Of a DNA stretch of 64,000 nt, positions 10,417 to 62,105 are shown in pieces; within the stretch, counting starts at the first letter, position 1; each line of letters begins with the position of its first letter. Origin of the DNA: Kribbella catacumbae DSM 19601 (lineage in GTDB: Bacteria; Actinomycetota; Actinomycetes; Propionibacteriales; Kribbellaceae); NCBI RefSeq assembly GCF_000372465.1, contig NZ_AQUZ01000024.1, forward strand, positions 62,001-126,000, written 5' to 3'. Position numbers and translations under genes: made by a program. Below the pieces are notes generated by a model that was not told where the DNA came from, made no database searches, and saw only the letters and a list, made by a program, of their open reading frames with translations.

Positions 10417-10530
10417 CCGATCGAGGCTGGCCCGATGTCATCCACCGTCTTGCCGCGCCCCGCATGGTGCCCTGCGGTCCGATCCCCTATCGTACGATCG
10501 ACCGCGACGGACAAGGCCGGGAGGACTGCG

Positions 10531-11064
10531 GTGGGTGACACGGACCGCCGTCCGGACACGGCCGAGGCGCTGATCCGCTCGCTGTACGCCGAACACGGCC
10601 GCAGCTTGCTCGCCTATGCGACCCGGTTGACGGGTGATCGGGCAGCCGCGGAGGACGTCGTACAGGAGACTCTGGTCCGGGCGTGGAAGCATGCCGACGA
10701 TCTGGTCGAGGGCAAGGGATCGGTACGCGGTTGGTTGCTGACGGTCGCGCGCAACATCGTCACCGACCGGGCCCGGGCGCGTGCTGTCCGGCCCGCCGAG
10801 GTGGCAGAGGTGGCCGACCGTCCTCCGGTGGAGGGTGATCACTCCGAGTCGGTGGTGAACACGATGGTGGTGCTCGACGCGCTCGACCAGGTGTCGCCGG
10901 AGCATCGCGAGGTTCTGGTGCAGTTGTACTACCGCGGCCGGACCGTGACGGAGGCCGCGAAGGAGCTGGGCGTCCCGCCCGGTACGGTGAAATCGAGATC
11001 GTATTACGCCCTCCGAGCGCTCCGCGCGGTGATGGCCGGACCGGAAGCGGAGGTGGCCCGATGA
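10531..11064 (+). CDS. ECF RNA polymerase sigma factor
   Basis: This 177-aa protein has sigma-70 region 2 (AAAEDVVQETLVRAWKHADD, then WLLTVARNIVTDRARAR) and region 4 (SPEHREVLVQLYYRGRTVTE, then LGVPPGTVKSR helix-turn-helix). The combination of a linked anti-sigma gene and an adjacent lipoprotein recalls the SigL/SigK-type groups of mycobacteria (inference). The GTG at 10531 is chosen because a GGGAGGA Shine-Dalgarno lies at about 10519; a longer frame from 10435 lacks one. The stop overlaps the anti-sigma start as ATGA. A short ATCGTACGAT palindrome lies about 30 bp upstream. Confidence 0.92.
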   Translation: MGDTDRRPDTAEALIRSLYAEHGRSLLAYATRLTGDRAAAEDVVQETLVRAWKHADDLVEGKGSVRGWLLTVARNIVTDRARARAVRPAEVAEVADRPPVEGDHSESVVNTMVVLDALDQVSPEHREVLVQLYYRGRTVTEAAKELGVPPGTVKSRSYYALRALRAVMAGPEAEVAR

Positions 11065-11741
11065 GCGAGCACGATCACACTCAGCTGGGCGCCTACGTGC
11101 TCGGTTCGCTGGCGCCGGACGAGGTCCGCGCGCTGGATGAGCATCTGGCCGGTTGCGCCGAAGCGCGCGAGGAGCTGGCCGAGCTCGAGGAGATGAAGGA
11201 GTTCCTCGGCGAGGTACCGCCGGAGGCGTTCCTGGACGGGCCGCCGGAGGATGGCGACCTACTGCTGCAGCGCACACTGCGAGAGGTCCGGGCTGCTACT
11301 CCCGCCGACGCCCCCAAGCGTCGCCGTCCGTGGTTGCTGGTCGCCGCTGCCGCCGTGGTGGTCGCCGGGGCGCTAGGTGGCGGCGTAGTGATCGGTCGCC
11401 AGTCGGTCGACGAAGTAGCCAGTACTCCGCCCGCCGGCTCCAAGCACGTGACCGCGACGGATGCCACCTCCAAGGTGACGATGGCGACCACAGTGGAGCC
11501 GCGGGCCGGGTGGAGCTGGATCAACGTCAACGTCACCAACCTCAAGCCCGGTGCCGAGTGCGAGATGGTCGTCACCGACAAGGCGGGCAAGACCTACGTC
11601 GCCGGCAGCTGGGTGATCTCGCCGAAGGCCGCACGCGAAGGCAGCCGCTTCGGCGGTGGAGTGCTGGTGCCGGTCGACCAGGTGAAGTCGGTGGAGATCA
11701 GAACCGTGCAGGGTGAGCACGTCGTGACCACGCCGGTCTGA
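11061..11741 (+). CDS. Membrane-anchored anti-sigma factor
   Basis: The product is 226 aa. The N-terminal cytoplasmic part (about 1-90) has the layout of a zinc-binding anti-sigma domain with EHLAGC, a single membrane helix follows at about residues 95-115 (after KRRRP), and the extracytoplasmic C-terminal domain is about 110 residues (RskA-like). It would hold the adjacent ECF sigma factor at the membrane until released. The classical HxxxCxxC zinc site is incomplete: the second cysteine is alanine (HLAGCAEA). Start and stop fit tight coupling with the sigma gene. Confidence 0.9.
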   Translation: MSEHDHTQLGAYVLGSLAPDEVRALDEHLAGCAEAREELAELEEMKEFLGEVPPEAFLDGPPEDGDLLLQRTLREVRAATPADAPKRRRPWLLVAAAAVVVAGALGGGVVIGRQSVDEVASTPPAGSKHVTATDATSKVTMATTVEPRAGWSWINVNVTNLKPGAECEMVVTDKAGKTYVAGSWVISPKAAREGSRFGGGVLVPVDQVKSVEIRTVQGEHVVTTPV

Positions 11742-11771
11742 AACCGGTTGCCTCGCCGAGGAGGATGGTTC

Positions 11772-11935
11772 GGGCGTGCCTCCTTGTCTCGTGCGTGCTG
11801 CGCGGCACTCGGCACGGCACCTCGGCGCACTGGAGCAAAGGCCACGATGGAATAACATCGAGGCCTTCACTCCAGCACGCCGAGCTACCGCACCGAGCAC
11901 CTGCTCGCGACTGCACGAGACAAGGAGGCACGCCC
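11772..11935. promoter_or_regulatory. 164-bp near-continuous inverted repeat covering the ribosome-binding site of the next gene
   Basis: The outer arms 11772-11794 and 11913-11935 are 23 bp and perfectly complementary. Inside, 11804-11843 pairs with 11862-11901 around a six-base loop (11850-11855) with 9 A-C type oppositions and 1 true mismatch. The right arm contains AAGGAGG (11922-11928), the Shine-Dalgarno of the gene starting at 11940, and the left arm contains its complement CCTCCTT (11779-11785). A plus-strand transcript covering both arms would hide the ribosome-binding site. In a minus-strand transcript all nine A-C oppositions become G-U pairs. It may instead be a terminator or a miniature mobile element; no target duplication was seen. 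Confidence 0.8.
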
Positions 11936-11939
11936 TAGC

Positions 11940-13043
11940 GTGAACTACGCGATTACCGAGGCATCCGCAGACCTCCGTTCTCGGCGCAAGGCTGCGGCCG
12001 CGGACTGCACTCGCTGGCTGTCCGGTCGGAGAGCGCCGGCGGCGGACGTGCTGCGAGCGCTCGCTGATGCGGTGACGGAGGACGAGCGCGATGGCTACGG
12101 CAGTGGCGGCGAGGTCGAGCTGATCGAGCAGGAGGTTGCTGAGCTGCTCGGCAAGCCGGCTGCGGTCTTCCTGCCCAGTGGGATCCTCGCCCAGCAGAGC
12201 GTGCTTCGCGTCTTCGCGGATCGCGCCGGGACGCAACGCGTCGCAGTACATGGGTTGTCTCATCTGTTGGTGCACGAGCTGAATGCTCTGGAAGAGGTAC
12301 ACCACCTGCGGATCGAGCGGATGACGTCGGAGCCGCGTCAGCCTCGGCCGGATGAGCTTGCTGCCATCCCGGGGAAGCTGGCTGCTGTGACGGTGGAGTT
12401 GCCGCTGCGCGACGGTGGGTTCGTACTGCCGAGCTGGGACGAGCTGGTGGTGTTTGCTGCGGCTTGTGAAGCCCGTGGCGTCCCGCTGCACCTGGATGGC
12501 GCTCGCCTGTGGGAGAGCACGCCGTACTTGGAACACAGCCTGGCGGAGATCGCTGCGCTCGCGTCTACGGTCTACGTGTCGTTCTACAAGGGCCTCGGTG
12601 GGCTCAGTGGAGCTGCACTGGCCGGGCCCGAGGACGTGATCGCTGAGGTACGCCGGTGGCAGCGCAGACTCGGCGGCAACCTCTACACACTCTTCCCGTA
12701 CGCCGTGTCCGCGCGCGAGGGGCTGCGTACCGTACTGCCGCTGATGGGCGAGCTCCACCAACGTGCTGTCGAGTTGGCCGGCGCCTTGCAGAGCACGGGA
12801 TTCCGGGTCTTTCCCGAGCCGCCGCACACGAACTCGTTTCGGGTCTACGCGCCGCGGCCGGCAGAGGAGATCGAGCTGGCCGCAGTACGCCGGATGGAGG
12901 CGACGCGGGAGTCGATCTCGTACACGTGGCAAGCGGCCGACGTACCGGGCTGGTCGTGGGTCGAGCTGGTCGTGACGCCCGGGACGTTGCAGTGGCGGGT
13001 CGACGAAGTAGCCAAGGCTTTTGGGGAACTTCTCGACGGGTGA
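11940..13043 (+). CDS. Threonine aldolase-family PLP-dependent beta-eliminating lyase
   Basis: The product is 367 aa and has the fold-type I PLP enzyme pattern of low-specificity threonine aldolases. It shows a glycine-rich phosphate-binding region (FLPSGILAQQ), the aspartate that contacts the pyridine nitrogen in HLDGARLWE, and the PLP lysine in SFYKGLGGLSGA. It probably cleaves beta-hydroxy amino acids to glycine and an aldehyde; substrate is not determinable here. The GTG start at 11940 is 11 bases after AAGGAGG, which lies inside the large inverted repeat upstream, so expression may be gated by RNA structure. Confidence 0.88.
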   Translation: MNYAITEASADLRSRRKAAAADCTRWLSGRRAPAADVLRALADAVTEDERDGYGSGGEVELIEQEVAELLGKPAAVFLPSGILAQQSVLRVFADRAGTQRVAVHGLSHLLVHELNALEEVHHLRIERMTSEPRQPRPDELAAIPGKLAAVTVELPLRDGGFVLPSWDELVVFAAACEARGVPLHLDGARLWESTPYLEHSLAEIAALASTVYVSFYKGLGGLSGAALAGPEDVIAEVRRWQRRLGGNLYTLFPYAVSAREGLRTVLPLMGELHQRAVELAGALQSTGFRVFPEPPHTNSFRVYAPRPAEEIELAAVRRMEATRESISYTWQAADVPGWSWVELVVTPGTLQWRVDEVAKAFGELLDG

Positions 13044-37664: not shown

Positions 37665-38045
37665 AACCCAACCCCTAACCGTTAACCCCAAAAATCCCGG
37701 TTAGCCGATCCTAGCCCCACCCCGGCCCAGACGAACCGCGCGAGATGCACAAAGGCGTGGGGAGGGAGGGGCCCCGGACCGCCGCCACTCACAAACGTCG
37801 CCCGACCAGCCCTGGCCAGGCGTGCATGAGCGTGCTGTGGGCTTCGCAGAGCAGGTTTGTGAGTGGCGGCGGTCCGGGCCGCAATTCGCGCTACCCCCGG
37901 CGGAGGCGGTGTCGAGGTCCGCCTCGGCCGCGAGTCTCGCTGTCCGCAGGAAGCCGGGACGGGTGCGGGGGAACGGGGGCCGGTAGACTCGTCGGGTTGC
38001 CGGGTTCCTGGCTCTGCTCCATCGAAAGAAACGGACTGTTCTCTC
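37665..38045. other. 381-bp gap upstream of ffh
   Basis: No gene is supported here. The gap holds a large inverted repeat (37773-37878), described separately, and C/G-rich sequence. The ffh promoter probably lies in the last 100 bases, but I see no convincing -10/-35 pair. Confidence 0.5.
37773..37878. repeat. 24-bp perfect inverted repeat with 58-bp loop
   Basis: 37773-37796 is perfectly complementary to 37855-37878. The loop contains its own 10-bp palindrome, CCTGGCCAGG (37811-37820). The structure would form a very stable stem in RNA or single-stranded DNA. There is no T-tract, so it is not a classical terminator. Confidence 0.85.
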
Positions 38046-58614: not shown

Positions 58615-59595
58615 CTACCTTCCTGACTGGTCGCGCAGGGGTGCGCTTCCGGAGTGCGCGCTGATCAGCGCGGCAAGGGATTGGTCTGCTTCGGGGTGCT
58701 GCAGGTGCCAGGCCGTCAGTTCAGTCCAGGTCGGCGCGGCGTCGGCACCACCTAGCCGGGTCACGGACAGCGCCGCTGTCAGTGCGGCGAACCGCACCCG
58801 CTCAGCGAGTGGGAGCTCCCACAGCGTCGCTGCGATGAACCCGGCGGCGAACACATCACCCGCCCCGGTGGTGTCCGCCGCCGAGACCTGCACGGCCGGT
58901 ACTGCGACCCGCTCGCCGGAGCCGGCGTCGAGCGCCAGTGCTCCGTTCGCGCCGTCCGAGACGACGACTACGGGTACCTTCTCGGCCAGCCGCTCGAGCG
59001 CCTCGTCCGGCGTACTCGTGCGGGTGTAGCTCATCGCCTCGCCGGCGTTCGGCAGGAACACGTCGCAGTGCTCCAGCTGATCGAGTACTGCGGGGTCCCA
59101 TCGCTCGGAGGGGTCCCAGCCCACGTCGGCGAAGACCACGCTGCCGGCCGCCCGGGCCTTGGCGAGCCACTCGTTCGGCCAGGGACCGATGTGAGCGGCG
59201 ACGGCCCGGGCGGCCGGCGGCGTGGTGAGAAGCTCGTCGGCTGACAGCGGAGGAGGGGTACCCCTCGTGACCAGTGCCCGGTCATCCGCATAGGCAAGGG
59301 CCACCGTGAGGGGCGTCTGCCAGCCTTCGAGCTTGCGGGAGAAAGTCAGATCGATGCCCTCGCCCTTCGACAGCCGCTCCCACAGCCGGTCGCCGAGGTC
59401 GTCGGCCCCGAAGGTCGCGGCCAGGCCGGTACGCAGCCCGAGCCGGGCCAGCGCGACGGCGAAGTTGGCGATCCCGCCCGGGCTCTCGGCGGAATCCACC
59501 GCCCAGACCTCGGTACCGGGGCGCGGCGCGGAGGGCAGGCCGAGGACGAGGTCGTGGAAGACCAGGCCGGACACCACCACATCCAGCTCACTCAT
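58615..59595 (-). CDS. PfkB-family carbohydrate kinase
   Basis: The protein is 326 aa. PfkB motif 1 is SPGGIANFAVALARLGL; motif 2 is DTTGAGDVFAAGFIA with the catalytic Asp. It probably phosphorylates the sugar or sugar derivative released from the imported substrate; the exact sugar is unknown. It is the first gene of the transporter operon. ATG at 59595 (MSELDVVVSG) is preferred over an upstream frame to 59634. Confidence 0.9.
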   Translation of the reverse strand: MSELDVVVSGLVFHDLVLGLPSAPRPGTEVWAVDSAESPGGIANFAVALARLGLRTGLAATFGADDLGDRLWERLSKGEGIDLTFSRKLEGWQTPLTVALAYADDRALVTRGTPPPLSADELLTTPPAARAVAAHIGPWPNEWLAKARAAGSVVFADVGWDPSERWDPAVLDQLEHCDVFLPNAGEAMSYTRTSTPDEALERLAEKVPVVVVSDGANGALALDAGSGERVAVPAVQVSAADTTGAGDVFAAGFIAATLWELPLAERVRFAALTAALSVTRLGGADAAPTWTELTAWHLQHPEADQSLAALISAHSGSAPLRDQSGR

Positions 59596-60472: not shown

Positions 60473-61812
60473 GGCTGACCATTCTCGGGGGTGGCGGGTT
60501 CCGGGTTCCGCTTGTTTACCAGGCGTTGCTGGGTGATCGCGGGGACGGCCGGATCACTTCCGTCGTGCTCTATGACACCGATCGCTCCAGGCTGGCGTCG
60601 GTCGGGTCCGTACTGCGCCAGCAGGCGTTGCCGTACTCCGATGCGCCGGTGGTCACCGAGACGACCGATCTCGACGAGGCCCTGCGGGGTGCCGATTTCG
60701 TCTTCTCGGCGATTCGTGTCGGCGGGCTCGAAGGGCGCACGGTCGACGAACGCGTCGCGCTCGATCTCGGCGTACTGGGTCAGGAGACGGTCGGTGCCGG
60801 CGGGATCGCGTATGCGCTGAGAACGTTGCCGGTGGCAACCGCCATCGCGGAACGGGTCGCCGCGCTCGCGCCCCAGGCCTGGGTCATCAACTTCACCAAC
60901 CCGGCCGGGATGGTCACCGAGGCGATGATCCCCTACCTGGGTGACCGCGTGATCGGTATCTGCGACTCGCCGTCCGGGCTCGGCCGCCGGGCCGCGCTGG
61001 CCTTGGGGCTGGATGCTTCGTCGGTCTTCTACGACTACGCCGGGCTGAATCACCTCGGCTGGCTGCGCGGTCTGCAGTCGGGTGGGGTCGACCATCTGCC
61101 GGCGCTGCTGGCGGATCCCGCTGCGCTCGGGGATTTCGAGGAGGGGCGGCTCTTCGGGGTCGAGTGGTTGCGGTCGTTGGGGTCGATCCCGAACGAGTAC
61201 CTGCACTATTACTACTTCGCTCGCGAGACGCTGGCCGCAGTACAGGCGGTGGAGCAGACTCGGGGGACGTTCTTGCTGGAGCAGCAGTCGGCCTTCTACG
61301 CGGAGACCGCGCGGCAGCCGTCGGACGCGTTGGAGTTGTGGCAGAAGACGCGGGCCGAGCGCGAATCGACGTACATGGTCGAGAGTCGCGCGGTGGCCGA
61401 CGCGGGGGAGCGGGACGAGCGGGACATGTCGGCCGGTGGGTACGAGCAGGTCGCGCTGTCGCTGATGCGGGCGATCGCCCACAACGAGCGGGCCTCGCTG
61501 ATCCTCAACGTCCGCAACCGCGGCACGCTGCGGCACCTGGACGACGACGCGGTGGTGGAGATCCCGTGCACGGTCGACGCCAATGGCGCCCGGCCGGTCA
61601 CCGTGTCGCAGTTCACCGACCATCAGGCCGGCCTGGTCTGCGCCGTGAAGGCGGTCGAACGGTCGACGATCGAGGCTGCCGCATCAGGCTCGCGCTCGGC
61701 CGCCATCCGGGCCTTCGCCTGGCACCCGCTGGTCGACTCGGTCACCGCCGCGCACCAGCTCCTCGACGGCTACGTCGCGCAGTTGCCCGAACTCACCGCC
61801 TTCCGCGCCTGA
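60469..61812 (+). CDS. Glycoside hydrolase family 4 protein (6-phospho-glycosidase or related)
   Basis: The protein is 447 aa with the family 4 pattern: an N-terminal NAD-binding loop LTILGGGGFRVPLVYQALL, INFTNPAGMVTEAMI, GICDSPSGLGRRAALALGL with the metal-binding Cys, and NHLGWLRG with the metal-binding His. Family 4 uses NAD and Mn2+ in an oxidation-elimination mechanism on phosphorylated or uronic sugars. Linked to a kinase and ABC importer rather than a PTS, it may act on a sugar phosphorylated by PfkB or on an unphosphorylated glycoside. Confidence 0.9.
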   Translation: MRLTILGGGGFRVPLVYQALLGDRGDGRITSVVLYDTDRSRLASVGSVLRQQALPYSDAPVVTETTDLDEALRGADFVFSAIRVGGLEGRTVDERVALDLGVLGQETVGAGGIAYALRTLPVATAIAERVAALAPQAWVINFTNPAGMVTEAMIPYLGDRVIGICDSPSGLGRRAALALGLDASSVFYDYAGLNHLGWLRGLQSGGVDHLPALLADPAALGDFEEGRLFGVEWLRSLGSIPNEYLHYYYFARETLAAVQAVEQTRGTFLLEQQSAFYAETARQPSDALELWQKTRAERESTYMVESRAVADAGERDERDMSAGGYEQVALSLMRAIAHNERASLILNVRNRGTLRHLDDDAVVEIPCTVDANGARPVTVSQFTDHQAGLVCAVKAVERSTIEAAASGSRSAAIRAFAWHPLVDSVTAAHQLLDGYVAQLPELTAFRA

Positions 61813-62105
61813 GACCCCCCATCCGTTGTGATCATTCGCCCCCTTTTCACCCTCAGTTCGGCGGTTGAGTGGAGGTCGGTGATCTTGGAGGGTGAAAAGG
61901 GGGCGAATGATCACTGGAGGTGGAGGGGCCCGGCGGATTGGTCCGGGGCGGGGGGATCTGGCAGAATGTTGGGCTGAGTCCGTCCGGATCACGTGCAGCC
62001 CTCTAACTCCACGTCCCGGCCGGCCCATTCGAGCGGTCACTCGTTGTCCCCACGACGCCGGTACCGCTCAACCAGTCATGAAATCCCGAGGGAGACCCCA
62101 CAAAC
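61813..62105. other. 293-bp gap between the GH4 gene and rpsP
   Basis: No gene. It holds a 27-bp perfect inverted repeat (61828-61914) and, further on, the rpsP leader. The rpsP promoter probably lies in 61940-62080. I see no clear -10/-35 pair. Confidence 0.5.
61828..61914. repeat. 27-bp perfect inverted repeat with 33-bp loop
   Basis: 61828-61854 is exactly complementary to 61888-61914. The stem begins GTGATCATTCGCC and includes a run of C then TTTTCACC. It is 15 bp after the GH4 stop codon. It may act as a terminator, but the length and perfection exceed a usual one. Confidence 0.9.

Follow-up and report, generated by a model that had tools for sequence, protein, structure and literature searches.

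The intergenic region in front of a beta-eliminating lyase family gene of Kribbella catacumbae DSM 19601 contains a long inverted repeat that pairs better in one strand than in the other, which raises the question of whether it serves that gene or has a biology of its own. The preliminary description of the locus, based on the 64,000 nucleotides of contig NZ_AQUZ01000024.1 that constitute the window, considered two possibilities, a plus-strand translational switch and a highly structured minus-strand RNA. Comparison with related sequences points elsewhere: the repeat is a recent insertion of a dispersed, gene-less Kribbella hairpin element.

The inverted repeat is real, and its outer arms (11772-11794 and 11913-11935, 23 nt) are 100% complementary, as originally described; its true extent is 11771-11936, however, or 166 bp and not 164 bp. 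This is a complete element of what we call family A, with the plus orientation set by the core and the minus strand being the better-pairing one. The element consists of a left variable arm of 24 bp (11771..11794, plus strand), a conserved core (11795..11912), and a right variable arm of 24 bp (11913..11936), which pairs with the left arm of its own copy. Pairing typically stops at 24 bp across 96 copies; most other copies have a closing A-T pair at the end of the 24-bp arms, while the outermost left base in the window copy is C. All nine core mismatches are A opposite C in the plus strand and G-U in the minus-strand fold, as had been noticed at the outset, and eight of them make up four tandem CA/CA (UG/GU) steps. 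The centre of the core, GGCCACGATG...CATCGAGGCC, is common to family A and to a second family, B (see below).

The fold of the repeat far exceeds chance. The minus-strand RNA of 11771-11936 forms 64 Watson-Crick and nine G-U pairs with an energy of -152.3 kcal/mol (z -15.9), and the plus-strand RNA folds at -124.8 kcal/mol (z -10.7); none of 200 shuffles was as low in either case. With DNA parameters, the minus hairpin is at -83.1 and the plus hairpin at -72.7 kcal/mol. An Rfam search over 11500-12200 gave nothing above threshold, with MIR1437 the only hit, at 28.1 bits where the gathering score is 168. The window has other hairpins as well. At 61828-61914, just past the ORF end at 61812, perfect 27-bp arms enclose a 33-nt loop, and this inverted repeat folds at about -59 kcal/mol as plus-strand RNA and is possibly a terminator-like hairpin; a nearly perfect 29-nt inverted repeat lies in an ORF region at 59135-59226; and a long hairpin at 37773-37878, with 24-bp perfect arms and a 58-nt loop, is found inside long minus-strand ORFs and bears no sign of membership in the element family.

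The gene downstream of the element (11940..13043, plus strand) matches PF01212 with E 1.2e-29. The upstream gene (11061..11741, plus strand) encodes an anti-sigma-like protein with a zf-HC2 domain and adjoins a sigma-70 family gene (10435-11064). The sequence AAGGAGG at 11922..11928 of the plus strand was reported to be hidden in the plus-strand stem, and it is indeed there, in the right arm, separated by an 11-nt spacer from the GTG at 11940, of which it is now the sole nearby Shine-Dalgarno-like sequence. We compared twenty loci with the downstream gene, one of them our own and 19 from relatives. The element is absent from all 19 related loci, in 18 of which the upstream gene is matched too (the exception is L064), and a Shine-Dalgarno sequence is found 9 nt before the start codon in relatives (GGAGG in L059, AGAGG in L060). 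The empty site in genomes G036 and G024 reads GAGGATGGATAGC, then GTG, and the filled site in the window reads GAGGATGGTT, the 166 bp element, AGC, then GTG. The window copy is a recent arrival, and it parted the native Shine-Dalgarno of the lyase gene, GGAGG at 11760..11764 (plus strand), from its start codon. The AAGGAGG that took its place looks like an accident of arm sequence, because five near-same arms elsewhere (L010, L019, L020, L022 and L029) have AAGGAGA instead and, as judged by eye, neither ATG nor GTG in the roughly 15 nt that follow the right arm.

These comparisons give the local translational switch no support. A switch acting in cis on the gene at 11940, or an antisense RNA to it, would account for the pairing of AAGGAGG in the plus stem, but the 19 related loci do without the element, the nearest relatives have a plain Shine-Dalgarno, and the same element adjoins many different genes; we consider a local regulatory role hardly credible, and a conserved one is contradicted. 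Pairing is kept in relatives, but in dispersed copies and not in orthologous leaders. The insertion may have a strain-specific effect on the expression of the gene at 11940, and any such effect would be a by-product.

The element is widespread within Kribbella, a genus of soil bacteria. In its own genome (9.63 Mb, 151 contigs), BLAST finds ten places with a near-full core at 94-100% identity, in addition to partial copies. All 36 same-genus relatives searched have matches, and among order-level relatives 2 of 21 have a match, each single and weak. Family B elements are about 172 bp long, with other arms and the same centre. A scan with the centre pattern found strong folds at 67 of 113 loci among the matches listed, 65 of the 67 being from Kribbella; the non-Kribbella matches listed, other than L180 and L186, have weak folds, and five from Nonomuraea read as one conserved stretch and not as a hairpin. 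L186, from Streptomyces sp. SID13031, bears a family B copy, and we suspect that it is a mislabelled Kribbella. L180, from an Acidobacteria MAG, was rejected: at -106 it barely passes the energy cut-off, and its fold differs from this hairpin. Phages and plasmids contain no match to the element at E 0.001, and none of the four viral contigs that match the centre pattern folds as the element does. Many similar copies at different sites, empty related sites, and a length that leaves no room for a transposase gene mark this as a dispersed non-autonomous mobile element. Flanks that look alike by eye (L051 and L055; L039, L046 and L052) suggest insertions common to several species, so a few insertions may predate species splits.

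Mismatches in one direction were initially taken as a sign of selection on RNA structure. In the minus-strand reading of 96 family A copies, the 24 arm pairs (2,304 cells) include 2,172 Watson-Crick, 63 G-U and 6 A-C pairs, 58 other mismatches (24 of them in one column pair) and 5 gapped cells, and the 48 core pairs (4,608 cells) include 3,582 Watson-Crick, 947 G-U and 27 A-C pairs (22 of the latter in one column pair), 51 others and 1 gapped. Family B is similar, with 1,499 Watson-Crick, 207 G-U, 31 A-C (27 of them in three neighbouring pairs) and 39 other combinations among 1,776 cells of 24 copies, after exclusion of three family A sequences caught by the family B search. The minus strand folds lower than the plus strand in 96 of 96 family A copies, in 24 of 24 family B copies, and in all 119 elements of the one-contig-genome set described below. 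In an alignment of 40 sequences, 98.1% of cells pair, and both partners have changed at 22 of the 25 pairs of the outer helix; none of 500 shuffles reached any of the five measures applied, with slid controls somewhat favouring the fold because that alignment had also supplied the structure. Next to the loop, the G-U positions of the core are retained in almost every copy; one pair, for instance, is U-G in 40 of 40 sequences.

A structure-free alignment of left against right arms in 202 distinct elements gave 125 A-C and 29 G-T mismatches (plus strand), along with 152 other mismatches and 33 gaps; copies are related, so the p-value of the 125 versus 29 comparison is only indicative, and the ratio is weak in some genomes (5 to 3 in G034, 4 to 2 in G004). 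In the arms, mismatches other than wobbles occur as often as wobbles do, with 58 versus 63 in the 96 copies and 152 versus 125 in the 202 elements. Among 21 recently diverged copies from the same genome there is no asymmetry, 9 versus 8, which is what fresh neutral mutations would look like. This comparison drew on 34 parsed elements out of the 119, and a few copies with indels, L271 foremost, have their arm frame shifted by at least one base; these slips blur the 9 versus 8 count and inflate the arm figure of 27%. We rejected replication-linked mutation bias as an explanation of the A-C excess: the typical bias of the leading strand, an excess of C-to-T, would give the opposite sign, and the skew measured in G034 is weak and has its normal sign. 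The data support the view that in families A and B one-directional mismatches reflect pairing kept on the minus strand, in line with the original suggestion of selection on structure.

The arms diverge more quickly than the core. Arm sequences are distinct in 88 of 96 family A copies; the 5' arm has a mean identity of 0.63 and the core one of 0.88 (96 copies), and among pairs of copies whose cores are at least 0.97 identical the arm mean is still 0.69. In G034, five copies with nearly the same core (0-2 differences over 118 bases) nevertheless have altered arms, with some changes mirrored on the other arm. Our reading is that the core is constrained in its sequence and the arms in their pairing, through numerous cycles of movement; alternatively, the contrast may stem from gene conversion in the core or from genuine hypermutation in the arms. 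Shortened copies, inspected by eye, are mostly internal deletions that retain both tips (5 of 5 in G000, 9 of 10 in G034). Arms-only palindromes with other cargo were not found among 20 single-end pattern matches, where the recognisable cases are deletion scars and the rest are chance-like. Two tiny scars, L246 (G034:1208866) and L255 (G034:5913410), including TAGGGCGTGTCGATCACCACGCCCTAG, resemble near-complete internal deletions in which the tips alone are left.

The strongest regularity concerns replication. In 11 one-contig genomes the centre pattern CACGATG N3-9 CATCGAG occurs 179 times, and 140 of these matches, from nine genomes, were examined (left out were 29 that comprise all those of G002 and G013 and 5 of G016, and 10 others). 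Elements were called by a minus-fold energy cut-off of our choice, -105; the energies split into 119 matches at -128 or lower, the elements, and 21 at -89 or higher, the non-elements, with a gap between these values. Taking dnaA as the origin and its antipode as the terminus, with the skew checked in G034 alone, we find that the plus strand points away from the origin in 118 of the 119 elements and in 11 of the 21 non-element controls. The GC skew of 20 sampled 20-kb segments of G034 (+0.021 in the right replichore, -0.026 in the left) agrees with this polarity. The orientation of the element is almost absolutely tied to fork direction in nine genomes, and with the plus strand pointing away from the origin, plus is the lagging-strand template and minus the leading-strand template. 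A comparison of short flanks detected one probable shared site, so the 119 sites may not all be independent. Shortened copies in G034 are concordant with the fork in 10 of 10 unique cases, as are four scars examined by hand (L247, L249, L254 and L258), which favours biased insertion over later loss. Neighbouring tandem gene pairs, called by our own ORF heuristic, are plus-sense in 34 cases versus minus-sense in 12, an excess expected from fork-tied orientation. The lone element against its replichore, L371 (G028:5255504), lies about 0.5 Mb from dnaA and could mark a local inversion.

The insertion junctions are equally telling. Joined flanks of 87 copies were compared with the loci, and eight alignments were printed; four filled/empty pairs (L161/L085, L121/L004, L130/L129 and L040/L175) have an ungapped junction without target duplication, and the rest of the eight are gapped or doubtful. 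Many flanks have TA on both sides, where duplication and its absence look alike; the window site is of this kind, and the four informative pairs are not. The 87 copies prefer T or C at position -2 (69/87), T at -1 (41/87), A at +1 (47/87) and G at +2 (46/87), and the closing A...T pair behaves as a part of the element. In the four informative copies, insertion is at a YT^AG-like plus-strand site and leaves no target-site duplication. With the ORF heuristic, which placed 84 of the 123 copies listed (short or gene-less flanks dropped, L139 counted twice), elements sit near stop codons, at a median of 7.5 bp from a stop-facing gene end versus 58.5 bp from one that faces with its start.

Our preferred explanation, which we hold to be probable with due reserve, is that the gene-less hairpin moves as one folded strand that would be joined into DNA at the replication fork, by an enzyme supplied in trans. 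Fork-locked orientation and zero duplication suggest single-strand insertion at the fork, as is known for the IS200/IS605 family, where orientation follows replication (portions of PMC5371812 and PMC6006769). The enzyme would most likely be an HUH/Y1 transposase (RAYT or IS200/IS605-like), and recognition may proceed through the folded minus-strand shape together with the conserved core, which would leave arm sequence free to drift while pairing is retained. The transposed strand of IS608 is the lagging-strand template, according to the same portion of PMC5371812; in our element that is plus, the worse-pairing strand, so a simple copy of IS608 misfits. We infer that minus is the recognised strand, and its preserved fold, opposite to the IS608 expectation, keeps a folded-RNA intermediate among the possibilities.

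In that scheme, to which we give second place behind insertion of single-stranded DNA and which is on the whole unlikely, a minus transcript would fold, and a reverse transcriptase supplied in trans would copy it into the nascent leading strand, after the fashion of group II introns that enter the leading-strand template independently of an endonuclease, or of a bacterial SINE. Wobble pairs are kept on the would-be RNA strand, 118 of 119 copies have that strand as the leading-strand template, and the lack of target duplication in the four informative pairs is compatible as well. Group II introns can insert into the leading-strand template, where the nascent leading strand can prime reverse transcription (as part of PMC5894124 relates), and the placement of our element suits such priming. 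It is ranked second because shortened copies mostly keep both tips, unlike the one-ended losses of target-primed reverse transcription, and both the reverse transcriptase and the transcript are putative; besides, G-T wobbles stabilise single-stranded DNA too, as seen in the DNA-parameter folds, and Rfam has no family at threshold in 11500-12200. Its more specific SINE-like version, a shape-recognised, gene-less minus RNA hairpin of 166 nt inserted into the leading-strand template with the nascent strand as primer, is a little more doubtful still; if true, it would leave the terminal 24 bp free to diverge while paired.

The other contenders give up the folded strand as the thing that moves or is selected. 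A conventional double-strand MITE (IS630/IS5-like, with TA target) would owe its bias to beta-clamp targeting or to later selection, and we find it improbable. Small intergenic palindromes with TA are typical of MITEs (PMC2229807, in the part on such repeats), and orientation bias is also seen in beta-clamp-targeted double-stranded DNA transposons (PMC5371812, in part), so the many flanks with TA on both sides, the window site among them, could be read this way. What speaks against it is the zero duplication in the four filled/empty pairs able to show one, and a double-strand mechanism gives no reason for strand-specific wobble. Inverted pairs of TAGGGCRTGTC ends at IS spacing, inspected by eye, are likewise missing from five genomes, a weak test since the ends of the element vary, and a DUF4096 gene was found in neither of the two genomes searched. 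Random insertion followed by loss of copies with the strong-folding minus strand on the lagging-strand template (palindrome instability), in which plus A-C mismatches are tolerated as they weaken the hairpin there, has in its favour the frequency of deletion derivatives and the weaker plus hairpin under DNA parameters too (-72.7 versus -83.1 kcal/mol); but wrong-way remnants would be expected, yet 10 of 10 shortened G034 copies are concordant, and as the plus hairpin is still very strong, 118:1 is hard to reach by a difference in stability. We regard such differential loss as quite improbable. Less probable again is that arm complementarity is upheld by DNA template-switch (quasi-palindrome) correction and not by selection on a folded strand: it would explain fast yet coordinated change of the arms, but correction should act first next to the loop, where the core keeps G-U, and it predicts no A-C/G-T bias, against 125 versus 29 observed (though 9 versus 8 in the 21 recent copies).

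What is new here is the near-absolute fork-relative orientation, in 118 of 119 elements versus 11 of 21 controls. About 118 insertion sites in nine genomes record this polarity together with selection on the fold of one strand, and they raise a testable question, namely whether the mobile form is single-stranded DNA or RNA, and which strand of the fork receives the hairpin. The element can be used as a marker of replichore orientation. It also cautions that A-C mismatches on one side only, next to a gene, can stem from the biology of a mobile element and not from the regulation of that gene. A literature search among open-licence PMC articles found no description of this Kribbella element, though one may be in print.

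Several known systems share some of these properties. REPIN/REP sequences (RAYT, TnpA-REP Y1) are also small, intergenic, gene-less hairpins with compensatory changes and proposed movement as single-stranded DNA (PMC3116915, in part), and TnpA-REP cleaves at CT dinucleotides, as a section of PMC8266576 has it, which is compatible with the CT^AG-like ends in Kribbella. The architecture is reversed, however: REPINs have conserved ends and a variable spacer, whereas the Kribbella element has variable ends and a conserved middle. It is also about 166 bp long, with strand-specific wobble pairs, and the REP/REPIN foot tag GTAG (or CGTC) is inconsistent in it, the ends being AGGGCG...CGCCCT and the internal GTAG alternating with GTCG. 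IS608 is not known to duplicate its target, and our element leaves no duplication in the four informative pairs. The IS200/IS605 family (IS608, ISDra2) further resembles it in that orientation follows replication, but the transposed strand of IS608 is the lagging-strand template (PMC5371812, in part), and the better-pairing Kribbella strand is the leading-strand template; the ends of IS608 form separate subterminal hairpins (PMC6006769, in part), whereas the Kribbella element is one whole hairpin. ERIC, Correia/NEMIS and RUP elements are, like ours, palindromes of 100-200 bp, mostly intergenic, often with TA ends and with strongly folding transcripts; target duplications are listed for them, against none seen in our four informative pairs, and the portion of PMC2229807 that describes them mentions neither covarying hypervariable arms nor replichore-locked orientation. 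In comparison with group II introns, the Kribbella element is a gene-less, unbranched hairpin of 166 nt, and no Rfam intron matches 11500-12200. Group II introns, like our element, are not known to leave a target duplication. They also combine structured RNA with a bias for one strand of the fork, as part of PMC5894124 documents, and in this combination the Kribbella element resembles them.
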